In this document: positions 3 to 26,935 of the stretch, piece by piece | Position numbering within the stretch: position 1 is the stretch's first letter | How the letters are laid out: every line of letters begins with the position of its first letter | From: Bacteroidaceae bacterium | GTDB taxonomy: Bacteria; Bacteroidota; Bacteroidia; Bacteroidales; Bacteroidaceae | Direction of reading: 5' to 3' | Assembly: GCA_017448825.1 (NCBI GenBank) | Contig: JAFSKR010000030.1 | Location: 1 to 51,353, forward strand | Length of the DNA: 51,353 bases | Translations under genes and position numbers: made by a program | Notes under the pieces: generated by a model | Told to the model about the DNA's origin: nothing | The model's input: the letters and a program-made list of their open reading frames with translations, nothing else | Database searches by the model: none

Positions 3-605
3 GGGGCGTTTATGAATTGTTCCAAATTGTCAGAGTTGGTGATTGGCGATAACGTTCGCACGATAGGTTATCGTGCCTTTGCCAATTGTGTGGATTTGGA
101 AGAGGTGGTGATACCCGACAAGGTGACCACGTTGGAACGGAAGAATACAGTATACGAGGAAGCTGAAACGTTCAGTGGTTGCACAGGTTTGACCTCTGTA
201 ACCTTGGGCAAGCGAATGACGACGATGGGAACGGGTGTGTTTACAGGTTGTGCCAACATCGCCAATGTGACCATCAAGGACGGTTGTGCATTGGTTGGCG
301 AGCAGTGTTTCAAAGATAGCGAGAAAATACAGGCCATCTATGTTTATTGTACCGATGTGCCTGCTGCAAGCGCCAATTCCTTCAAGAACTACAATGCGAC
401 GCTTTATGTGCCAGCAGAATCGATGAATGAATATAAGGCGCATGAGGTGTGGAGTAAGTTCCTCTCCATAGAAGACGTTTGGGCAACTGGTATCGGCAAC
501 ATTGACGCATCAAAGGAGAAGGAGGGCAAGTTCCTGGAGAAGGGACGAATCGTCATAGTGCGCAATGGCAAGAAGTATGACTTGTCGGGCGCGGCAGTGG
601 AGTAG
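3..605 (+). CDS. BspA-type leucine-rich-repeat surface protein, C-terminal part (5' end outside window)
   Basis: The frame is open from the window edge, so only about the last 200 residues are visible. They contain BspA/LRR_5-type repeats of the form L..V.IGDNVRTIGYRAFANC and L.SVTLG....MGTGVFTGC, with the usual spacing of about 23 residues. A non-repeat cap (about residues 110-155) contains TLYVP and EYKAHEVWSKF. Proteins of this type are secreted or surface-exposed in Bacteroidales and often act in adhesion. The last 40 residues (GKFLEKGRIVIVRNGKKYD then LSGAAVE) form a tail also found on the 1762-residue protein at 18215-23503, so the two may share an export or anchoring signal. A strong hairpin terminator follows the stop. 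The repeat family is clear; the biological role is not. Confidence 0.85.
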   Translation, partial: GAFMNCSKLSELVIGDNVRTIGYRAFANCVDLEEVVIPDKVTTLERKNTVYEEAETFSGCTGLTSVTLGKRMTTMGTGVFTGCANIANVTIKDGCALVGEQCFKDSEKIQAIYVYCTDVPAASANSFKNYNATLYVPAESMNEYKAHEVWSKFLSIEDVWATGIGNIDASKEKEGKFLEKGRIVIVRNGKKYDLSGAAVE

Positions 606-13167: not shown

Positions 13168-14718
13168 TTATTTTCTTCGTTTGCTTTGCATCGTTATCAG
13201 CGGTATCAGCATCTCCTCCATCGAGATGCCGCCATGCTGGAACGTGTTCTTGTAGTAGCTGACGTAGTAGTTATAGTTGTTGGGGTAGGCGAAGAAGTCA
13301 TCATTCTGGGCAAAGATGTAGGTGGTGCTGATGTTGGGCGAAGGAAGGAATGCTGCCTTGGGTGCTTTCAACTCATACACCTGCTTCTGGTTGTAGCTCA
13401 GGTTCTTGCCCAGCTTGTAGCGCAGATTGGTATTGGTGTTCTTGTCGCCTATCACTTTGATGGGGTTGTTCACACGGATGGAGCCGTGGTCGGTCGTGAT
13501 GATGATTTTCGCATTCGTCTTCGCCAGTTCCTTGAAGAGTTCGCGCACAGGCGAATTGTGGAACCACGAGGCAGTGATGCTGCGGTAAGCCCGTTCGTCG
13601 CTTGCCAGTTCACGCACCATCCTCGACTCTGTGCGGGCATGACTGAGCATATCGATAAAGTTGATGACCAGCACGTTCAAGTCATTGTTCATCAGGTTCT
13701 TGAACCTATCGACGATTTTCTCCGATTCCGACGAGTTGTTCAGTTTGAAATAAGAAAAGGTGTTCTTCCTGCGATAGCGGTCGAGTTGTGTCTGGATGAG
13801 CGGCTCCTCGTTCAGGTTCTTGCCCTCCTCCTCGTCTTCATCCACCCACAGTTCGGGGTACATTTGTGCTATCTGATTGGGCATGAGGCCTGAGAAGATG
13901 GCGTTGCGGGCATACTGCGTGGCGGTGGGTAGGATGCTGAGGTAGAGCTGTTCGTCAAAGATGAAGTCGTCTGCCAGTTCTTTCGAGATTTCGCGCCATT
14001 GGTCGTAGCGGAAATTGTCGAACACCACCAGAAACACCTTTTCGCCTTGATTCAGCAGGGGGAAGATGGTTTTCTTGAACACATCGGGCGACATCAGCGG
14101 GCGCTCCTCGCTGTTCTGCACCCACTGGAGGTAGTTTTTCCGCACAAACTTCGCGAACTCGTTGTTTGCCTCCGCCTTCTGCATTTTCAGCATATCCGTC
14201 ATCTCGCTGTTCGTCTCTGCCAGCTCCAACTCCCAGAATACCAGACGTTTATACACCTCTTTCCATTCCTCCAGCGTGTAAGAGTCGTTGATTTGCATGC
14301 CGATGTGGGAAAAATTCTGCTGATACCCCTTATTCGTCACCTCCGTCTCAATCTCCCGTTTGTGCAGATGCTTCTTCAGGGTCAGGAATATCTGGTTGGG
14401 GTTCACGGGCTTGATGAGGTAATCGGCGATTTTCGAACCGATGGCCTGATCCATGATATTTTCCTCCTCGCTCTTCGTCACCATCACAATCGGGATGGTC
14501 GGATTGATTTCCTTAATCATCGACAACGTCTCCAACCCGCTCAAGCCTGGCATATTCTCATCCAAGAAGATCAGGTCAAAATTGTGCTCACGGCACAGGT
14601 CGATGGCATCTTGGCCATTCGTTGCCGTTACGACCTCATACTCTTTTTTTTCGAGGAAGATGACGTATGCCTTCAGCAGTTCAATCTCGTCATCCACCCA
14701 TAGCAAAGTTCCATTCAT
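13168..14718 (-). CDS. porX: T9SS response regulator PorX (receiver + PglZ phosphatase-like domain)
   Basis: The protein has a CheY-type receiver domain at residues 1-120 (VDDE at 8-11, phosphoacceptor D53 in LIFLDENMPG, T81, K103 in YLIKPVNP). A linker and an alkaline-phosphatase-superfamily PglZ domain follow: FDNFRYDQW near 233, PTATQYARNAIFSG near 266 with the presumed catalytic Thr, and ITTDHGS near 409. This architecture and length (516 residues) match PorX, which with PorY and the sigma factor SigP controls type IX secretion in Porphyromonas. I chose the ATG at 14718 because it starts directly at the receiver; a longer frame from 14769 runs through the promoter. No histidine kinase porY is in the window. 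Confidence 0.93.
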   Translation of the reverse strand: MNGTLLWVDDEIELLKAYVIFLEKKEYEVVTATNGQDAIDLCREHNFDLIFLDENMPGLSGLETLSMIKEINPTIPIVMVTKSEEENIMDQAIGSKIADYLIKPVNPNQIFLTLKKHLHKREIETEVTNKGYQQNFSHIGMQINDSYTLEEWKEVYKRLVFWELELAETNSEMTDMLKMQKAEANNEFAKFVRKNYLQWVQNSEERPLMSPDVFKKTIFPLLNQGEKVFLVVFDNFRYDQWREISKELADDFIFDEQLYLSILPTATQYARNAIFSGLMPNQIAQMYPELWVDEDEEEGKNLNEEPLIQTQLDRYRRKNTFSYFKLNNSSESEKIVDRFKNLMNNDLNVLVINFIDMLSHARTESRMVRELASDERAYRSITASWFHNSPVRELFKELAKTNAKIIITTDHGSIRVNNPIKVIGDKNTNTNLRYKLGKNLSYNQKQVYELKAPKAAFLPSPNISTTYIFAQNDDFFAYPNNYNYYVSYYKNTFQHGGISMEEMLIPLITMQSKRRK

Positions 14719-14738
14719 ATCTTTTTGTCCTTTGTTTG

Positions 14739-14770
14739 CAAAGGTACGCATTTTCGCCACATTCACCAAA
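14739..14770 (-). promoter_or_regulatory. Promoter of porX-tsaE
   Basis: On the minus strand TTTG (14770-14767), 20 nt, then TACCTTTG (14746-14739) followed by C. This is a near-ideal Bacteroidota promoter about 20 nt before the porX ATG. It lies inside the longer reading frame, which argues for the downstream start. Confidence 0.85.
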
Positions 14771-15097: not shown

Positions 15098-18013
15098 TTA
15101 GAAGATGAAGTTGTCTTCCTCGAAATCGTCCTCATCCTCCTCTTCTTCCGCAGGTTCTGGCAGTTCCGTCGGTTCGTCGAGAGAGGACGGTTCGTCCTCG
15201 TTGATGTGGAGGGAGCCGATGCGGTCGAAGTGTTCGTCGTAGAAGTCGAAATAGTCGGCAAAGCTGAGGCCCTTCATGAGTTTCTTGAGGTTCTCCTCGC
15301 TGATGATGAAGCACTTGAGGCCCTCCAGCTTGTAGGCCATGTCGGGGTTGTTGAGCAGACGGTGCAGATATATGTAAGCCTCGTCGTAGTTGAGGAAGGT
15401 GCGCACCTGCATCATGTCGATGCCGTCTCCCTTCTCCATCGTGAGGTCGAAGTTGCGGACGGTGAACGCCGTGAAGTTGTAGCGTGCCATCTCGTAGAGG
15501 AGCTGGTTCTCATCGACAGCATCACGCTCATAGGCAATGACGAAGACGAAGTCGGTGTTCTTCTCGGGGTTGAAGGTGGAGTCGTTCCCCAGCGAGTCGC
15601 CTTCCTCGCCAATGCCGCGCCGACGTTCCCAGATGCTGCCCATCTCGAACTTGCCGCCCTGCAAGAGTCGTCCTTCCTTCAGACCCTTCACGTAGAGGCC
15701 TGCCAGCTCGCTCACGCTCGACTTGGGATATTTCTCCACCAGCGTCTTCAAGTCGTTCATGAAGCGGTCGCGCTCACCCAGTTCCAGGCGGCTCATGGCC
15801 TCCAAGAACATGAAGCGTGGACGGTTATCCCCATTCGGGTACTCCTTCTCCATCTCCTGGCTGTTGTGAATCACGGTTTGGTAGTCGCTGAACTGGAAGG
15901 CATCATAGGTGAGGGTGTAGATGGAGTCCTCTATTTGCTTGCCATACCTGCCCTTATACTCGAAATCGGGGTCGGAGATGAGGATGCCGTGCTCATTCTC
16001 GGGAAACTCCGTCAGGAGCCGCTCCTTGTAGGCATCGGCATCGTCGCGCCGCTCCATCCTCGAATAGAGTTGGAACATATTGTAGTAGAGCTCGTCAAAC
16101 TGCTGGAAATCAGGGAAGTCGGTCAAGATGCGCAGGAAAGTCCGTTCAGCCAACGGCAGGTTCTCCATGCTGTCTTTGTAGATGATGGCAGAGCCATACA
16201 AGCCCTCCACCAACGCGGCATTGGAGGCTGCCATCTGTTCCTCGGTGAAGGGGATGTCCTTCAGGTAGTACTCGGGGCGATGTGGGTCGTTGGCATACTC
16301 CTCTGCCTTGATGCTGTCCTTCTCCTCCTTCGAGAGTTTCTTGCCCTTGTTGGCCTGGTTGATGCTGTCTTCCACCGCCGCGATGCTGTCCTGCACGGCT
16401 TTCAGGCTGTCCGACAGTTCTTCCTCGTTGAAGTCGCTCAGCACGGTCTTGTTGTTTCTGCGCCAGTCGTCAGCCAGTTCGCGCTTGCCCCACTTCTTCT
16501 CGAACTCCTTCTTGCCAGCCGTCACGGTGGTGGGGTTGTAGAAGTACCACACCGCTGTCTGCTGTCCGTTTCGGTTGCTCACCCCCTGCTGCTGAGCGTT
16601 GGCACCGGTGCGTTGGGCGTTGTTGCCCGCTCCGCTCGCTGCTTCCTGTGCCTTCTTCTCCTCCTCGCGTTCCTTCTTTTTCAATTCCTCGATGGTCTTC
16701 TTGATTTTTGCCATGCGTGTGGCAGAATCAAGCCGCGCCATCATCTGGAGGCTGTCTTGCAGCTCCACAGCCGAGGCGTAGGGCAGCAGCTCGTCCAATA
16801 TCTTGCCGCGCTCGTCTATCTCCTTGTAGTCCTCGCGGTCTTTGTCCAACAGGCCAATCACCTGCGAGTAGCACTCCTGCGCATCGACAAACTTCTCCTT
16901 GTCCCAATAGAGTTGCCCCAAGTGCAGCATCACGACACCCTTCTCGATGCCGTTGCGGGTGCTCTTCTCCACACCGTCCTTGTATGCCCAGATGGCACGT
17001 GTGGTGTCGCCCTTCGCCAGATATATGTTGCCAATGGCATAGAACACCTGGTCGAGGTAGTCCTTGTTCTTGGGGTTCTTCGACATGGCAGTCAACTTCC
17101 GAATCATCTGCTTCGCGCGTCCCTTCGACATCGCCTCGGTCATCTGGATGCGTGCGTTGAACTCCAGTTCGTAGGGGGGATTCTTGCGGATGACCTTTTG
17201 GAAGTATTTGTACGCCTCGGGGTCGTGTCCTATCTTGTGGTAGAGCTGACCGAGCAGCAAGTACATACGTGCCCGCGGCAGATTGCGGTGTTCAACCTTG
17301 AGTGCCTTCTCGATGTTGAGGATGGCCTCGGGATATTGCTGGTTGCGCAGTTGGATGTCTGCCAAGACAGAGGCTTTCAGCGGTTCGAGATTGGTGGGGA
17401 AGGAGTCCCGCTGGGCACGATTGATAAGGTCCTCGGCATCGTAGAACCACTCCAGCTCGGCATAGCAACGTGCCTCCAGCAGCCGTGCCCTCGCCACGAG
17501 GTTCGGCTTGGAGAAATAGAGCCGCTGGATGTAGGCGAAGGTCGATGCAGCCTCCATATATTCGCCCTTGCGGAACTGTGCCTCGCCCATCAGGAACCAT
17601 GCCCTCCACAGGAAGGGATTATACTCCTTTTGGCTCAGCCAGATTCTGTCTTTCGGTTTCTTGGGACGGTTCTTCTTCCACTCGGGACGTGCCGTGATGC
17701 TGTGGGTCTTGATGGTCTTCTGGCACTTCTCCACCGCCGTGTTGAAGTTGCCCGACCCTATCTTTGCCGTGGCTTTGTTGCCTGTCACGTAGAGCGGAAT
17801 CACCTCCGTGAAGTTGTCCTTGTTGCCCTCTTCCTGCAACCGTTGCCCCTCCTTGTAGGCTTCATGTCCGTTGAAATAGGTGTTGTACCTCGCCTTGAAG
17901 CCCTGCACATTGCGCGTCAACGCCGTGTTCTTCTTCGTGGAACACGACGCCAGCACACAGAGTGCCACATAGATATATAATATGTATAGGATGCGTTTCA
18001 AATGAACAGGCAT
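15098..18013 (-). CDS. porW: TPR lipoprotein of the type IX secretion system, PorW/SprE-like
   Basis: A 971-residue lipoprotein: the signal sequence ends in the lipobox LASC at about residue 24. The start of the mature protein (CSTKKNTALTRNVQGFKARY then NTYFNGHEAYKEG) is the pattern I associate with PorW/SprE. Tetratricopeptide-like helical repeats fill much of the protein (for example WFLMGEAQFRKGEYMEAAST and YLLLGQLYHKIGHDPEAYKY). A charged coiled region (about 425-460) and a very acidic C-terminus (EEEEDEDDFEEDN) are also present. PorW is an outer-membrane-associated lipoprotein needed for T9SS function. It lies on the same strand as porX-tsaE but about 380 nt away with a hairpin between, so it is a separate unit. 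PorW is inferred from architecture; a generic TPR lipoprotein is the fallback. Confidence 0.82.
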   Translation of the reverse strand: MPVHLKRILYILYIYVALCVLASCSTKKNTALTRNVQGFKARYNTYFNGHEAYKEGQRLQEEGNKDNFTEVIPLYVTGNKATAKIGSGNFNTAVEKCQKTIKTHSITARPEWKKNRPKKPKDRIWLSQKEYNPFLWRAWFLMGEAQFRKGEYMEAASTFAYIQRLYFSKPNLVARARLLEARCYAELEWFYDAEDLINRAQRDSFPTNLEPLKASVLADIQLRNQQYPEAILNIEKALKVEHRNLPRARMYLLLGQLYHKIGHDPEAYKYFQKVIRKNPPYELEFNARIQMTEAMSKGRAKQMIRKLTAMSKNPKNKDYLDQVFYAIGNIYLAKGDTTRAIWAYKDGVEKSTRNGIEKGVVMLHLGQLYWDKEKFVDAQECYSQVIGLLDKDREDYKEIDERGKILDELLPYASAVELQDSLQMMARLDSATRMAKIKKTIEELKKKEREEEKKAQEAASGAGNNAQRTGANAQQQGVSNRNGQQTAVWYFYNPTTVTAGKKEFEKKWGKRELADDWRRNNKTVLSDFNEEELSDSLKAVQDSIAAVEDSINQANKGKKLSKEEKDSIKAEEYANDPHRPEYYLKDIPFTEEQMAASNAALVEGLYGSAIIYKDSMENLPLAERTFLRILTDFPDFQQFDELYYNMFQLYSRMERRDDADAYKERLLTEFPENEHGILISDPDFEYKGRYGKQIEDSIYTLTYDAFQFSDYQTVIHNSQEMEKEYPNGDNRPRFMFLEAMSRLELGERDRFMNDLKTLVEKYPKSSVSELAGLYVKGLKEGRLLQGGKFEMGSIWERRRGIGEEGDSLGNDSTFNPEKNTDFVFVIAYERDAVDENQLLYEMARYNFTAFTVRNFDLTMEKGDGIDMMQVRTFLNYDEAYIYLHRLLNNPDMAYKLEGLKCFIISEENLKKLMKGLSFADYFDFYDEHFDRIGSLHINEDEPSSLDEPTELPEPAEEEEDEDDFEEDNFIF

Positions 18014-18067: not shown

Positions 18068-18072
18068 AAAAT

Positions 18073-18120
18073 GATGGCAGCACCATCCACCCTGTGCATC
18101 GCACCAATGCGGGTGATAGC
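18073..18120 (-). pseudogene. Relic of a C-terminal tail like those of the BspA-like and 1762-residue proteins
   Basis: Sixteen codons on the minus strand read AITRIGAMHRVDGAAI, which aligns with VIIKNGTKYSVNGAAI of the large protein and with AIIRNGVKHGVNGATI of the relic at 23698-23838. Hand alignment with the latter gives 38 of 48 nucleotides identical. No start, stop or upstream coding sequence remains, and a terminator follows. It appears to be the last trace of a deleted gene of the same class. Confidence 0.6.
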
Positions 18121-18214: not shown

Positions 18215-21200
18215 CTACTTAATGGCAGCGCCATTCACGCTATACTTCGTACCATTCTTGATGATGACTACCTTGCCGTCCTCGAGGTACTTGCCGTTCT
18301 TCACGGTAGTAGCACCGCCGATGCCGTTGATGCCAACAGGAATGGTGTAAGTGAGGGTCACCTTCAAAACAACTGCGTCAGCAGTACCGCTCTCCACGAA
18401 TGCGTAAGTGGCAGTGAAAGTAGTTTCTTCGTCGGTATGACCAGGATAGCCACCTACTTCATAGAGTTGAGTGTCAGCCTTCGAGAAGTCAGCCTTCACA
18501 TAGAAGTAAGGAGCAATTTCGATGTCACCTGCCCATCCTTGCCAGTCGCCGTTAGCGTCACGCCAGCCGTCAGTAGTGCTGACTCCGTAGTTGCTGTCGA
18601 GCGAACCGTCAGACTGAACTGCGTAGATATCTACGTCGTCGAGAGACTCAACACCAAGTTTGTCGAGGATAGCGTCAACGTCAACGTCAGATGTCATTCC
18701 TTCGTAGTAGCTGCCAGTCTCAGACTCGAATGCAACAGTCACTTCATCAACCTTGTTGAGGTCGTCGAAGGTGAGGTCGATAACAGGCTCTTCGATGAAG
18801 TCCACAGTCACAGTAACAATCACTTGCTTGTTGCCTGCACCGAGAATCCAACCAGCGATGAGTTCATCACCAGCCTCTGGGTCATTGCCTGGATGAGTGC
18901 AGAGAGTGAACGAACCGTCATGTGGATACTTGAGGCAGAGACCGAGGTCTGTACCGTCACCGTTCCATTCCATTGGGTCGCCAGCAATGTCACGCCATCC
19001 GTCATGGTCTTCACCAGCTTCCCATGTAGTCATTACGATAGGATACATAGTTTCGATTTCGTCCCAAGACTCGATTTCAAGAGCTTCGAGGATTTCAGCC
19101 TCGTCATAAGCAACTTCATCAGGCGTGTAGCCCATACCTTCAACACGCTCAAACGTATAAGCGATGATAGGAGCAGGCATCTTGACAACCTGGAGGCTTG
19201 TTACTGTAGTGTTAGCCCAGTTAGCGCCCTTGATAGAGTGGAGGTGAGCAAAGCCGTAGTCAGCGATGATGGCTTCGAGGTCGATAGTGTAAGTCTTCGT
19301 GCCGTCGCCATTGTCCACAACAGTTTCATACTTAGCAGTCTGTTCTGCGTCGTTAGGTATATTGATGAGAGCACCTTCGTTCTCAACGCGGTTGAGGAGG
19401 AAGCGAGGCTCACCTTCAGATGCTACAGCCACAAGTGCAATAGCGTCGCTGAGGTCAGCGTACTGGAGGTAAGAAACGTTGGAGTTACCGTAAACGTTCT
19501 GAGTGGAAACATCAAGACCGTCGCCATTGTAGAAGCGCTCAGCGTCGTTGATTTCACCAGTTGCGTCGGCTGCAGTCCAAGCGTGGAAGTCCTCAGGAGT
19601 GAGGTCTGTGTAAACACCTTCGGAAGCGTAGATGATAGAAAGAACGTTGGCAACATACCAGTTACCGGCAGCTTCAAGGTTCTCAATACCATAAGTAAGT
19701 TCACCGTTCACAACAGAAGCTGTCAGTGTGACAATTGTCTGTTCGCCATCGGCAACCCAAGTACGGTCAACCACTGTGAGGCCTTCTTGAGACTCGTTAG
19801 CGAATGCAACGGCAAGGTCGTCACCAGTTGGGCACTCGAAGCCACGACCAGAAGTGTAGGAAGCAGCAAGTTCAAGAGTAACAATGTAAGTACCATTCTT
19901 CAAACCAGTAAGAGTTTGAGTGAGCACTTCACCTTCATCGATAGAGCCAGCACCGCTGTAACGCTCGTAAGCTGTGTGGCCAAGACCTGTGTAACCACCA
20001 GTCTGACCCTCCCAAGCAGCAGGTGCGAAGGCAACGATGTCGTCACCTACCTCATAGTTCTCCTTGTTCCACTTGTCAAGAGCTTCAAGATAGTCAGCAT
20101 AAGCTTCCAGATATTTGTTGTACTCTTCCTCAGAAACAGCAGCCCAAACATCCTGAGCTTCGTCTTCGGTAGAAAGATAGAGACGAGTGTCGCCCTTTGA
20201 AGGAACAACAGAGAGGTTGCCACCATCTGCTACATTGTTGTTGGCGATAGTGAATGTGCCGTTAGCAGCGATAGCTACTGTCCACATGCCATCACCACTT
20301 CGACCAGCACCGTCAACCCACATGCCAGCTGCGTCAGAGCAGTCAACAGCGTTCCAGTTGCCGTTAGGCAGTTGGTCGTTGAACTTGTATGTTGCACCAT
20401 CCTCGTTTGCAGTCAGCATTACAGGATAACCCTTGTCAGCTGCAACAGAAGCACGAGTGCCCCAGTCATTGCCACCTACAAAGAATGCCTTAGCCTCTAC
20501 GTTGTAGAGATACTGAGCTTCAGAACCATCAGTAGAGAGGGTTGCGAATGCAGGAGCAGCAGGAGCCTTTGGCATATCAGTGTACTCTTCGATATTCCAA
20601 ACTACATAGCCGTTAGAAGCGTTCTTGTCACCGTAGCATGGAGAACCTGCGGCAGCACCGTCAGAAGTGTTGGTGCCGAGGAGACCGCTCTTGCCCTTGA
20701 TGGTGTAACCACCCTCTGTAGTAGAGATTGTCCAACCGTAAGCGTCAGTGGAAGCCTTCATGGTCCAGTTGTTAGAACCTTCATAGACTATATACTCACC
20801 GTCTTCGTTACCCAGAGCGTATGTGCCATTGCCCATATCCTTGAAGTAAACATTGGTGCCTTCTTCGGCAATCTTGATGCCTTCGGCAGAGATGCTGAGG
20901 GCGTATGTGCCGTCAGAAGTGGTCAGTTCGAATACATAAGGCTTGCCTTCCTCTGGAGCTACACGTGGAGCAGCAGCATAAGCGTCGTTAGCAGCTCTCA
21001 GGGCTTCAACAGCGGCTAAGATTTCTTCGGCGGTAGCCTCTTCGTCGTTGATGACTGCAGCAGCAATTTCAACGGCAGCAGCATAAGCGTCGTAAGCCTC
21101 TTCTGTAATCTGGAAGAACTCATCGCCTACACCTTCCATTGCCTCAACAACAGCCATAGCTTCAGCGAGCAATTCAGAAGCAGAAGCAACAAGAACTTCA

Positions 21201-23503
21201 GTAGTCACGTCCTTCAACTGCCATACATAGTTAGGTGAGAGAGAGTAGCCAGCCTCTGGAAGTTCGTTGTCTGTGATGACAGCCCAGTAAGTGTTGGCAC
21301 CCCAGTTTGTACCAGTAGAGTTCGTAGAACGAACAGCATATTCTGTACCATTGTAGAAGAATACCTGACGCTCCCAACCACTACGGTTATTAGCGTTGGT
21401 ATGGATGCTGCCGTTGTTGACAACGTCGCCAGTAGAACCATTGCTCAAAGTTGGGTTGGTGAACATATTGATGCTCCATGCCTTGGCATAAGCACCTGTA
21501 GTATTGTCAGCCTTGAACTCGAAAGCATCAGCCTCTTCCTCATCAGCAGTCAACTTACCTTCAGCAGTGAGGTAGTAAGTGGTTTCACCCACTTCTGCGA
21601 AGATTTCATAGTAGTTACCATCTGTAATAGTTGGCAGAGCCTTCTCGAAGTTCTTCTGGAGTTCTTCTGCGGCAGACTCTTCGGCAGTGATATACTTCAC
21701 GTTCTGGAACGAGAGCCAGCTGATGTTGTTGTCATCAGCCACGTTGAAGGTGATAGTGAGCTTGCCGTCTTCGCCTACAGTAGCGTTAGCCTTGTACTCG
21801 CCAATGTTGAACTGACCAACAGCGTCGCCTTCAGTCACGTCAACAGCCTCGCCATCGTTAGCGGAGAGTGTGATGCCTGTAGCGTCGGCAGCTGCAGTGC
21901 CGTTCTTGGCGCGAACACGTACCCATGCCTTTACTACATAGTCACCAGCCTTAACACCCTCAACTGTAGCAGTGAGTTCGTTAGCACCGAGTGAGTAGGC
22001 ATCTCCTGTCCAGTACTCGAAGAAAGGAACCTTGAAATTAGTGCCGTCGCTTTCACCTTCTACAGACCAAGTGTTGATGTAGAGTGAAGTTGCGAAATCG
22101 CTGCACTGTGCGCCGCCAATGGTCCAAGCAGAAAGGAGCAGGTCGTCGAATGAGTTGGATGAGTGCCAGCCAGCCACAAGCTCTGGATTCACAACAGCCT
22201 CGGTGAGGGTACCCTCGTCGAAAGCAGTCTTGTAGCCGTCAACAAGCTCCTTGTAAGTAGTGTAAGCATCTGCTGTATAGACGTTGGTGTTCTCTGCGAG
22301 AGCGTAGAGAGCATCGATAGCAGCCTTGTTCTGGATGTCGAGCTTTGCTTGATTGATAGCAGCAGTGAGAGCAGCGATAGCAGTGCTGTAAGCTTCCTTA
22401 GTAGCCTCGATTTCTTCAGAGCCGCTGAGAGCCTCTTCAAGAGCTGTCTTTGTTGCAGTGCCAACATTTCCACCCTTCAGTTCTGTTGCTTGAGCACGAA
22501 GAGCCTCAACTTGTGTGATGTAGTCTGCGAGTTCAATCTGTGCAGCGTCTGCATCAGGACCGTAATAAGTCAACTCGAAGTTGTCCCAGATACACCAGAG
22601 AGAGGTGTTTGTTTCCAGTTTAGCACCTACCGTGATGTCGCCAGCCTCGGCCAGTGTGATAAACATAGGGTCAGCAGCATACAGCCCATTTGTGAATGAG
22701 GCAGAGGCGGCTGACATGTCGTTTTCAGAACCTGTTTTCAAAGGGAATGTAGAAGTTGCATCGTTGAGGAAGAAAACAGGAAGGTTGTCATTATCTGTGC
22801 CATCTTGACGATAGAATCCTTGAGCAGTCAGTTTGTAAACACCCTTGGGGGCATCTGCAATTGTCTGGCTAATAGTAAAGACAGAGTGGAAAGATTCTGC
22901 ACAGTTGTTAGTATTGTTGCCTCCAGAGAGATTTTTATTTGTGCAATCTTCAGAGACAACCCACTTTGAACTATTACGGTTGTTGCGACCAAATCCTTGT
23001 GCAAGGATAAGGAATGTTGCATCTACGGGAGCTTCAGCCGTTGCCTTAGCGAGAGAAGCTATCATGTCTGCCTCAGAGATGATGTTCCATAGTGCATTCT
23101 TGGAATCCGCAGCGAGGTTCTTGCCCAAAACGGTGGAAGTACCATCATAGCCATAGTAATTCTCGCCATTGGCAATTGTGTAATAGTCGCCGGATGCAGT
23201 GATGGTCAGACCGCCAGCAACAGGCTGACCATCCATGTAGTCACCACCAAAGTAGTAGTTAGTACCACCATTGGAAACCTGTGACTCAAGAGTGTACGTG
23301 CCGTCCTCATTTGCAATGAGCGTCACATACTCTGGGTTCTTCACGAGAGAAGCACGTGTGCCCCAATCGTTGCCAGCACCCCAATACTTGCCGGACTCAA
23401 CGTTCTGAAGGTAGTATTTACCATCAGCAAACTGAGCGTTGGCAGTGAGCGCTATGCACATCAGAGCCACCAGCGAGAAGAGAAATTGTAGGTTTTTCTT
23501 CAT
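18215..23503 (-). CDS. Giant secreted multi-domain protein with shared C-terminal tail
   Basis: A 1762-residue acidic protein with a clear signal peptide (MKKNLQFLFSLVALMCIAL then TANAQ). A domain at about residues 22-80 (YYLQNVESGKYWGAGNDWGT) recurs at about 1000-1060 (YLYNVEAKAFFVGGNDWGT). FIVAR-like helical segments occur near 325-420 and 780-850 (for example ALEEALSGSEEIEATKEAYS and VEALRAANDAYAAA). A third pair of repeats has DGWRD..GD cores near 1500 and 1646. The last 40 residues (GKYLEDGKVVIIKNGTKYSV then NGAAIK) match the tail of the BspA-like protein. The overall look is of a carbohydrate- or host-binding surface protein; no catalytic motif is recognised. A weak -7-like TTTATTTG lies at 23587-23580. 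It stands alone between two terminators. Confidence 0.85.
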   Translation of the reverse strand: MKKNLQFLFSLVALMCIALTANAQFADGKYYLQNVESGKYWGAGNDWGTRASLVKNPEYVTLIANEDGTYTLESQVSNGGTNYYFGGDYMDGQPVAGGLTITASGDYYTIANGENYYGYDGTSTVLGKNLAADSKNALWNIISEADMIASLAKATAEAPVDATFLILAQGFGRNNRNSSKWVVSEDCTNKNLSGGNNTNNCAESFHSVFTISQTIADAPKGVYKLTAQGFYRQDGTDNDNLPVFFLNDATSTFPLKTGSENDMSAASASFTNGLYAADPMFITLAEAGDITVGAKLETNTSLWCIWDNFELTYYGPDADAAQIELADYITQVEALRAQATELKGGNVGTATKTALEEALSGSEEIEATKEAYSTAIAALTAAINQAKLDIQNKAAIDALYALAENTNVYTADAYTTYKELVDGYKTAFDEGTLTEAVVNPELVAGWHSSNSFDDLLLSAWTIGGAQCSDFATSLYINTWSVEGESDGTNFKVPFFEYWTGDAYSLGANELTATVEGVKAGDYVVKAWVRVRAKNGTAAADATGITLSANDGEAVDVTEGDAVGQFNIGEYKANATVGEDGKLTITFNVADDNNISWLSFQNVKYITAEESAAEELQKNFEKALPTITDGNYYEIFAEVGETTYYLTAEGKLTADEEEADAFEFKADNTTGAYAKAWSINMFTNPTLSNGSTGDVVNNGSIHTNANNRSGWERQVFFYNGTEYAVRSTNSTGTNWGANTYWAVITDNELPEAGYSLSPNYVWQLKDVTTEVLVASASELLAEAMAVVEAMEGVGDEFFQITEEAYDAYAAAVEIAAAVINDEEATAEEILAAVEALRAANDAYAAAPRVAPEEGKPYVFELTTSDGTYALSISAEGIKIAEEGTNVYFKDMGNGTYALGNEDGEYIVYEGSNNWTMKASTDAYGWTISTTEGGYTIKGKSGLLGTNTSDGAAAGSPCYGDKNASNGYVVWNIEEYTDMPKAPAAPAFATLSTDGSEAQYLYNVEAKAFFVGGNDWGTRASVAADKGYPVMLTANEDGATYKFNDQLPNGNWNAVDCSDAAGMWVDGAGRSGDGMWTVAIAANGTFTIANNNVADGGNLSVVPSKGDTRLYLSTEDEAQDVWAAVSEEEYNKYLEAYADYLEALDKWNKENYEVGDDIVAFAPAAWEGQTGGYTGLGHTAYERYSGAGSIDEGEVLTQTLTGLKNGTYIVTLELAASYTSGRGFECPTGDDLAVAFANESQEGLTVVDRTWVADGEQTIVTLTASVVNGELTYGIENLEAAGNWYVANVLSIIYASEGVYTDLTPEDFHAWTAADATGEINDAERFYNGDGLDVSTQNVYGNSNVSYLQYADLSDAIALVAVASEGEPRFLLNRVENEGALINIPNDAEQTAKYETVVDNGDGTKTYTIDLEAIIADYGFAHLHSIKGANWANTTVTSLQVVKMPAPIIAYTFERVEGMGYTPDEVAYDEAEILEALEIESWDEIETMYPIVMTTWEAGEDHDGWRDIAGDPMEWNGDGTDLGLCLKYPHDGSFTLCTHPGNDPEAGDELIAGWILGAGNKQVIVTVTVDFIEEPVIDLTFDDLNKVDEVTVAFESETGSYYEGMTSDVDVDAILDKLGVESLDDVDIYAVQSDGSLDSNYGVSTTDGWRDANGDWQGWAGDIEIAPYFYVKADFSKADTQLYEVGGYPGHTDEETTFTATYAFVESGTADAVVLKVTLTYTIPVGINGIGGATTVKNGKYLEDGKVVIIKNGTKYSVNGAAIK

Positions 23504-23697: not shown

Positions 23698-23838
23698 CTT
23701 GATGGTAGCACCATTCACACCATGCTTCACACCATTGCGGATAATAGCCACCTTACCGTCCTTGAGGAACTTGCCGTTAGCCTTAGGCTTAGCAGTGTTG
23801 AAGCCAGCGATGCCGTCAACCGCACCGCACTTGGTACG
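23698..23838 (-). pseudogene. C-terminal remnant of a secreted protein of the shared-tail class; stop codon lost
   Basis: The minus strand reads GAVDGIAGFNTAKPKANGKF then LKDGKVAIIRNGVKHGVNGA then TIK, clearly the same tail as at the C-termini of the BspA-like and 1762-residue proteins. Where those end in K or E plus stop, this copy continues with CAA (Gln), a one-base change from TAA. The frame then runs on through the old terminator to 23599. No body of the gene survives upstream: priA ends about 100 nt away. This is a truncated relic, not an active gene. Confidence 0.8.
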
Positions 23839-25989: not shown

Positions 25990-26622
25990 TTAGAACAGGT
26001 AGGTCAGAGAAATCTGATGGGTGTTGTTCTTGAGCTTGCCCTTGACGGTGTTGCCCGCAGTGCCGATGAGGGTTGTTTCTGCTGTCTTGCCGATGCCGAT
26101 GTTGTAGTTGTAGCCGATACGGATATGGTTGAGTGCGGTGACACCAGCACCCACGTTCCATGAGAACTCAGATTTCTTCAGTTCCCAATCCTCCGTGAAA
26201 CCTTGATAATTGGAGAGTTTCCAGTTTCTGTCGCCGACGTTCCATGCGAACTGTGGACCAGTGGCAAGATAGACGCTGGCGAGGTTGCTCAGACCAATGG
26301 TGTATTTCACATTGATGGGCAGTGCCACATAGTGGAGGGTCTTGTTGGCTTTTTGCCCGTTTTCGGTAAGGCCGATGATTTTATTGTTGTAAAGCAGAGA
26401 GACATCGGCACCAATACCGATGAGTGGTGCTGTGAAGTCGGCTGTGACACCGGCGAAGAAACCGGTGCGGTTCTTGCCGTCGATGTTGCTTTGCATGTTT
26501 TTCAAACTGACAGAGTTGACATTGAGACCAGCCTTGATACCAAATTGGAATTGTGCCTGAGCAGGCATTGCGAATGTGAGGGTTGCCACCAGGACAACAA
26601 TACTCAGAACGTTCTTTTTCAT
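25990..26622 (-). CDS. Outer-membrane beta-barrel protein (porin-family/PorT-like fold)
   Basis: A 210-residue protein with a signal peptide (MKKNVLSIVVLVATLTFAMP then AQAQ), then alternating beta-strands typical of the small OMP_b-brl_2 barrels of Bacteroidota (FGIKAGLNVNSVSLK, TGFFAGVTADFTAPLIGIGA, VALPINVKYTIGLSN). It ends in an aromatic residue, TYLF, as expected for the BAM assembly signal. I chose the ATG at 26622 because it gives the signal peptide; the frame from 26730 adds 36 residues without such features. The function is not predictable beyond an integral outer-membrane role. It lies directly upstream of priA, an unrelated partner. Confidence 0.85.
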   Translation of the reverse strand: MKKNVLSIVVLVATLTFAMPAQAQFQFGIKAGLNVNSVSLKNMQSNIDGKNRTGFFAGVTADFTAPLIGIGADVSLLYNNKIIGLTENGQKANKTLHYVALPINVKYTIGLSNLASVYLATGPQFAWNVGDRNWKLSNYQGFTEDWELKKSEFSWNVGAGVTALNHIRIGYNYNIGIGKTAETTLIGTAGNTVKGKLKNNTHQISLTYLF

Positions 26623-26935
26623 GCGTTTTTTTGTTTTTTTAGTTGATATTGATGGATTTTGTTGCAAAGTAAACACTTTTTTCTTACATGAAGAAATATT
26701 TAAGCCAAAAATTTCTTCAGGTATTTGCACGATGTTATTTCATTCCCTTCCTCGTAGTCAATAGAATAAGAACCCGTATGTGATTATAAGTATATGCTCA
26801 TATTGTAAAGTGTAGTTACGAAAAGAACTTGTCCCCCACTTTTGGCAAAATTCGTTAACTATTATCAAAATCAGCCTTTTAAGTACTTGTCAACACCCCT
26901 GTTGAAAACTTTTTTGAAAAAAAATTAAGAAAAAG

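Follow-up and report, generated by a model that had tools for sequence, protein, structure and literature searches.

A conserved C-terminal tail on secreted Bacteroidales proteins is a probable T9SS sorting signal resembling short CTDs with exchanged motif order

Two proteins with unrelated bodies, encoded in a 51,353-nucleotide stretch of the genome of a gut bacterium of the Bacteroidaceae (the window), end in the same short tail. This tail is probably a T9SS sorting signal, namely a variant of the short CTDs in which the order of the motifs is changed; we put the probability of this reading at roughly 65%, and a role in secretion is suggested by the features described below. The tail is tied to the short CTDs of Prevotella intermedia because it has a PT/GI-like motif, a predicted three-stranded fold and two halves which resemble the CTD motifs D-E and B. 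In the initial annotation, one conserved tail on different proteins had been proposed to act in sorting, a variant of the T9SS signal being considered plausible, and this proposal gains support from the analysis.

A BLASTP comparison of the BspA-like LRR protein with the 1762-residue protein (one comparison) gave a single significant alignment, which is the tail (E 2e-8). In this alignment 19 of 38 residues are identical and 29 of 38 positive; the remainder of the two proteins gave no significant alignment (next-best alignment E 1.4), so that the tail described before on two unrelated bodies is real. Since the window starts at a contig end, the LRR ORF lacks its 5' end and its signal peptide is not visible; at the N-terminus of the 1762-residue protein a signal peptide is evident. 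A profile of the two tails was then used to search all of the assembly (2.95 Mb, 75 contigs, 85.9% complete). Four matches were obtained at E ≤ 1, of which three are good (E 2e-10 or better); all three good copies lie inside the window and the fourth, with E 0.475, elsewhere. The coordinates are given in Table 1. The T9SS genes porX and porW, whose proximity had been noted at the outset, are both present in the window.

Table 1. Positions of tail copies, their parts and the T9SS genes in the window.
Feature	Position	Strand	Evidence
BspA-like LRR surface protein, 200 codons	3..605	+	ORF; PF13306, 82.4 bits
Tail of the BspA-like LRR protein	483-602, stop 603-605	+	BLASTP, ORF
TGI in the linker of the LRR protein, candidate motif for cleavage by PorU	486..494	+	sequence; motif enrichment; PT/GI consensus as reported in PMC11969387
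27-residue tail core of the LRR protein, D-E-like half then B-like half	522..602	+	
porX, T9SS response regulator	13168..14769	-	NF052313, 836.5 bits, cut-off 300
porW/sprE, T9SS lipoprotein	15098..18013	-	NF052312, 725.7 bits, cut-off 250
Smaller, more decayed remnant of the tail, located between porW and the 1762 gene	18072..18120	-	
1762-residue secreted protein, tail at end	18215..23503	-	ORF
Tail of the 1762-residue protein	18218-18337	-	
27-residue tail core of the 1762-residue protein	18218..18298	-	
VGI, linker motif ahead of the tail core in the 1762-residue protein	18329..18337	-	
Orphan remnant of the tail, located between the 1762 gene and priA	23698..23820	-	genome profile search

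Among the genomes of the same genus, 36 of 37 matched at E 0.01 (the source genome counted, G004 missing), and at this threshold 1 of 24 more distant genomes did (G051, E 0.008). A sample of the family, searched with the A3 profile of 28 tails, gave matches at E 0.001 in 50 of 251 genomes and in 13 of 30 genera. With the broad profile A5 and a threshold of E 0.0001, 8/295 genomes of the order sample matched and 1/296 of the phylum sample, the latter being the source genome itself. In G514, a genome of another family, at least 25 tails were counted with 25 of 83 candidates scored. Bacteroidales bacterium KHT7, named as a rumen bacterium in PMC7807696, is also among the carriers (L118). In the sampled stretches, tail-carrying ORFs numbered 7 of 318 for G179 and 2 of 605 for the source genome. 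One secreted tail protein (L134) was found in a record labelled Bacillota (isolate NALB_7861_17), a label which looks doubtful.

The window also holds the two tail remnants listed in Table 1. The larger, which the initial annotation does not mention, has a stop codon upstream, is bodiless and continues its frame beyond the usual stop position, and is for these reasons read as a remnant; its DNA is 77.8% identical to the tail of the 1762 gene over 81 bases, and the more decayed remnant has 79.6% identity to it over 49 bases. In other genomes, too, giant tail genes are preceded on their own strand by a priA homologue (L103, L117/L284, L268/L280, L072), so that the remnants flanking the 1762 gene fit neighbouring tail genes which were lost. 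Upstream of priA, a small outer-membrane beta-barrel protein is encoded (25990-26730, minus strand; PF13505, 67.5 bits), whose match to PorT is below the threshold (20.6 vs 125 bits).

Two orphan remnants beside one gene, together with tandem carriers elsewhere (G019:C42; L287 in G179), would also be produced by a spreading 3' gene segment which is kept by recombination among neighbouring genes and has no function itself. We regard this as highly improbable: conservation of the protein pattern extends over 13 genera and diverse bodies, the intact tails of the window share little DNA identity outside the protein pattern, and in G514 the tail is carried by 35 of 291 called ORFs, counted in 20 stretches chosen around known hits.

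The position of the tail and the N-termini of its carriers were analyzed in the named genome contigs, where the scan gave 115 relatives, the best 80 of which were retained. In all 80 loci the tail forms the extreme C-terminus, the match ending not more than 4 codons from the stop codon. Signal peptides were called by a hydrophobicity rule, not by SignalP, and by this rule 56 of the 62 carriers with a closed 5' end have a signal-peptide-like start vs 129 of the 284 remaining ORFs in these loci (118 of 284 when the first ATG is used, the carriers staying at 56 of 62). Tails on cytoplasmic proteins, which the initial annotation had named as a refuting result, were not found as stated there; 6 of 62 carriers fail the rule. 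One of these six (L112) plainly has a signal peptide, although it scores under the cut-off; the gene of L079 is interrupted, and L145 has a run of N inside; for L074, L091 and L130 no signal peptide was seen in the open frame. The excess recurs in G514 (28 of 32 tail ORFs, three more being unreadable, vs 82 of 218 others), in which the 4 of 32 start-readable tail ORFs without a signal peptide by the rule count as evidence to the contrary, and in G179 (7/7 tail ORFs vs 95/271 others). The tail is found, like a T9SS CTD, at the extreme C-terminus of proteins with a Sec signal peptide.

The source genome encodes SprA, the translocon of the T9SS (at C3, 2678.7 bits) and PorU (at C29, 957.4 bits), both outside the window. 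In the family sample sprA is present in 195 of 251 genomes, including 48 of the 50 tail carriers vs 147 of the 201 non-carriers (Fisher p 2e-4, uncorrected for phylogeny). The corresponding figures at genus level are 12 of 21 genera with sprA and 1 of 9 without (p 0.04, likewise uncorrected for phylogeny). A tail equally common in genomes without T9SS, the other refuting result named in the initial annotation, was not seen as such: it occurs in 48 of 195 sprA-positive and in 2 of 56 sprA-negative genomes. One of these two is probably T9SS-positive: G258, of which 78% is present in the assembly, contains porU together with 8 type-A CTD matches. For the other, G130, matches to sprA, porU and type-A CTDs were not obtained, and its divergent tail lies on a contig of 3,462 bases; G130 is a true exception or one derived from contamination. 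As expected of a T9SS CTD, the tail occurs in genomes with T9SS core genes, the exceptions being G258 and G130. The system does not need the tail, because 147 of the 195 sprA-positive family genomes are without a match. At order level the correlation was discarded as uninformative: sprA is present in 8 of 8 carriers, yet also in 277 of all 295 genomes.

PorU itself does not bear the tail in any of the 6 genomes in which its C-terminus was inspected. The PorU proteins of this genus (L273, L274, L275, L278) could be aligned with the model no further than about position 990-997 of 1095. Their C-terminal domain is shortened, which is not the case for PorU in G179 and G514.

For the analysis of the linker ahead of the tail, a profile of the 27-residue core without the linker columns was used, which matched 259 ORFs (125 non-redundant). 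In the 25 residues which precede the core, the motif [TV][GASD]I was seen in 60 of 125 sequences vs 6, 3 and 6 in three control windows further upstream, and TGI in 29 of 125 vs 0, 0 and 0, whereby the far control windows lose short proteins. An earlier count of 73/132 vs 2 was superseded, the profile used for it having included linker columns. Judged from the sequences, the tail has a putative cleavage site of the PT/GI-like kind with conserved Ile, as is known from short CTDs. AlphaFold2 predicted three strands for the tail alone (mean pLDDT 78.7, pTM 0.47). For the last 165 residues of the 1762-residue protein (pLDDT 79.1) it predicted a folded domain, a disordered linker (residues 126-135, pLDDT < 50) and then three strands; a single three-stranded sheet behind a flexible linker, as in short CTDs, is what these models suggest. 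Foldseek returned 136 matches of the tail model in the PDB at E 10 and none at E 0.001. The best of them, a strand unit of N-acetylglucosamine-6-phosphate deacetylases, was judged trivial.

Related bodies were found to take either ending. Locus L287 of G179 has a tandem pair of genes with 72% identity over 985 columns and with different endings: the protein of 996 residues ends in the tail, and that of 1333 residues runs about 370 residues further and ends in a type-A-like B-D-E motif (12.4 bits vs the NCBIfam cut-off of 23). When bodies of tail proteins were compared with bodies of proteins having short or long CTDs, 9 of 243 pairs aligned to both body ends. These are L118 with L360, then L114, L144, L181, L214 and L327 each with L317, and finally L044, L026 and L133 with L288. 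Since L181 and L214 hold the same gene, as do L026 and L044, 7 pairs in three clusters are left; the aligned bodies are 22-45% identical, and L288 and L360 belong to the source genome. Within the L317 cluster even the linkers are alike (PTGMENN, PTAIENS and PTDIENT vs PTAIENT) until the endings diverge. We judge this exchange of endings to speak most strongly for an equal role of the tail and the known CTD.

This interchange bears directly on the idea that the tail is a C-terminal structural or attachment module, for instance a cap or a strand unit for assembly, which is unrelated to export by the T9SS. A unit of three strands on a linker could have other uses, G130 carries a divergent tail without T9SS genes, and most T9SS genomes of the family are without the tail. 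A module of this kind would, however, hardly be expected to change places with known CTD endings, to follow a cleavage-like linker motif or to be associated with sprA, and we consider it rather improbable.

Short CTDs were harvested with a regular expression, which gave 8, and with an iterated profile, which gave 26 non-redundant sequences. In short CTDs the cleavage site is followed by YDLxGRxV (motif B) and then by GxYIxNGKKVxxK (D-E). In the tail it is followed by GKYLENGKIVIVK and then by KYNVxGQxIK. The two orders were compared with ungapped profiles and column-shuffled nulls using 25 short CTDs, at least 2 of whose D-E blocks were mis-parsed, and the motif blocks had been defined after the likeness was already noticed. 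The first half of the tail matched D-E over 13 columns (p 0.003) vs p 0.18 for B, and the second half matched B over 12 columns (p 0.0005, the floor of the test), although it also resembles D-E (p 0.016). A score of 23.3 was obtained for the order D-E-B, whose null was 11.6 with sd 1.8 (p 0.002, again at the floor), and one of 13.6 for B-D-E (p 0.13). Repeat tests used 21 strictly parsed short CTDs, then 9 from the source genome alone, and the tails split into A5 rows 1-36 and 37-55. The D-E-B result was robust, with p 0.003 (the floor) in all six subset tests; B-D-E gave p 0.02 to 0.09, reaching 0.02 in two of the six, and the reversed tail scored 11.9 and 12.0. The swapped order had already been favoured when hhalign was used for permutation tests with 15 and with 10 short CTDs, but with a weak D-E block: in one of these tests the swapped order was best (23.9 vs 20.1), and 10 of 120 shuffled D-E blocks reached 23.9. 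The tail thus appears to contain the motifs B, D and E of the short CTDs, D-E less clearly by hhalign, and the order which fits their sequences is D-E-B instead of B-D-E. In the canonical CTD sheet the strand order is b4-b3-b6-b7 (PMC11285876). The turns of the tail model are short and would put the B-like strand next to the E-like one, so that a permutation which is exact in space is doubtful.

That the strand neighbours are likely to differ between the tail and a canonical CTD would be natural if the tail were a T9SS signal of a new class and of separate origin, the likeness to D-E and B being a convergence of short strand units with NG turns. The weakness of the D-E block in hhalign, where 10 of 120 shuffles did as well, and the lack of similarity to long type-A CTDs point in the same direction. 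Convergence leaves less room for ungapped matches of 13 and 12 columns in one order only, for a PT/GI-like linker common to tail and short CTD, and for linkers which are alike in L114/L144 and L317 right before the endings differ. We consider it an unlikely explanation, but one to be kept in mind, and prefer the reading of the tail as a short CTD of altered motif order.

If the tail is such a signal, its carriers would be exported as follows. The signal peptide, which is supported by the sequences, would carry the protein through Sec. In the periplasm the tail, predicted as a three-stranded sheet on a flexible linker, would be read, and the protein would be passed through SprA to a PorV-type shuttle. 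By analogy to P. intermedia, PorU may cleave the linker close to T/GI, after which the body may be attached to surface polysaccharide. A CTD of one species may not work in another (PMC11285876).

A more far-reaching proposal would make the tail a sorting class of its own, served by its own shuttle or anchoring route, and in some Bacteroidales the main T9SS signal in place of type A. The numbers in G514, where at least 25 tails stand vs 12 type-A matches in a genome with SprA and PorU, point this way, and we advance the proposal as a tentative possibility. Lists of T9SS cargo for rumen and hindgut Bacteroidales are concerned, as the available models miss the tail and sets of large surface proteins have probably been overlooked. 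Should the tail be a CTD with swapped motifs, it offers a test by nature of what T9SS reads, the placement of a few motifs and not their order in the chain, and the related bodies with either ending are ready-made pairs for tests of T9SS recognition.

Among the known systems, the established CTDs are those of types A, B and C (PMC10202324). Matches to T9SS models of Pfam and NCBIfam were found for none of 28 tails, the other matches listed being to unrelated families with E 0.013 or worse; for types B and C this result covers such models as the two collections contain. Types B (TIGR04131, PF13585) and C are C-terminal T9SS signals as well (PMC10202324); they differ from the tail by a length of about 100 residues and by motifs of their own. 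Type A (PF18962, TIGR04183) is likewise C-terminal, is found on the same kinds of bodies and was matched in 41 of 42 genomes tested, which are mostly tail carriers. It differs from the tail in its length of about 70-80 residues, its seven-stranded sandwich and its model, which matched 0 of 28 tails. Homology to the long type-A CTDs of the same genomes was rejected, as hhalign gave a probability of 5% and no profile similarity. Among the matches listed in a limited search of the open-licence part of PubMed Central, there was no paper on the tail or on a permuted CTD.

The closest counterpart is the short T9SS CTD of P. intermedia (Ye et al. 2025, PMC11969387), whose cleavage and glycosylation are reported there from mass spectrometry. 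Short CTDs also occur in the source genome, from sampled stretches of which 11 of the 26 non-redundant sequences were obtained; therefore, the tail is a minor class there. NCBIfam recognised none of four short CTDs tried. The source genome combines these short CTDs with long type-A CTDs (5 TIGR04183 matches), and P. intermedia is given in the same paper as the sole species of the phylum reported with both CTD lengths. Failing the type A model and the motif order of the short CTDs, the tail is filed in neither class. The short CTDs of P. intermedia have the order B-D-E, in contrast to D-E-B in the tail. Both are C-terminal on signal-peptide proteins, including LRR proteins, both have about 40-55 residues from a PT/GI-like site to the end, and both are predicted to form one three-stranded sheet with D-E- and B-like elements.
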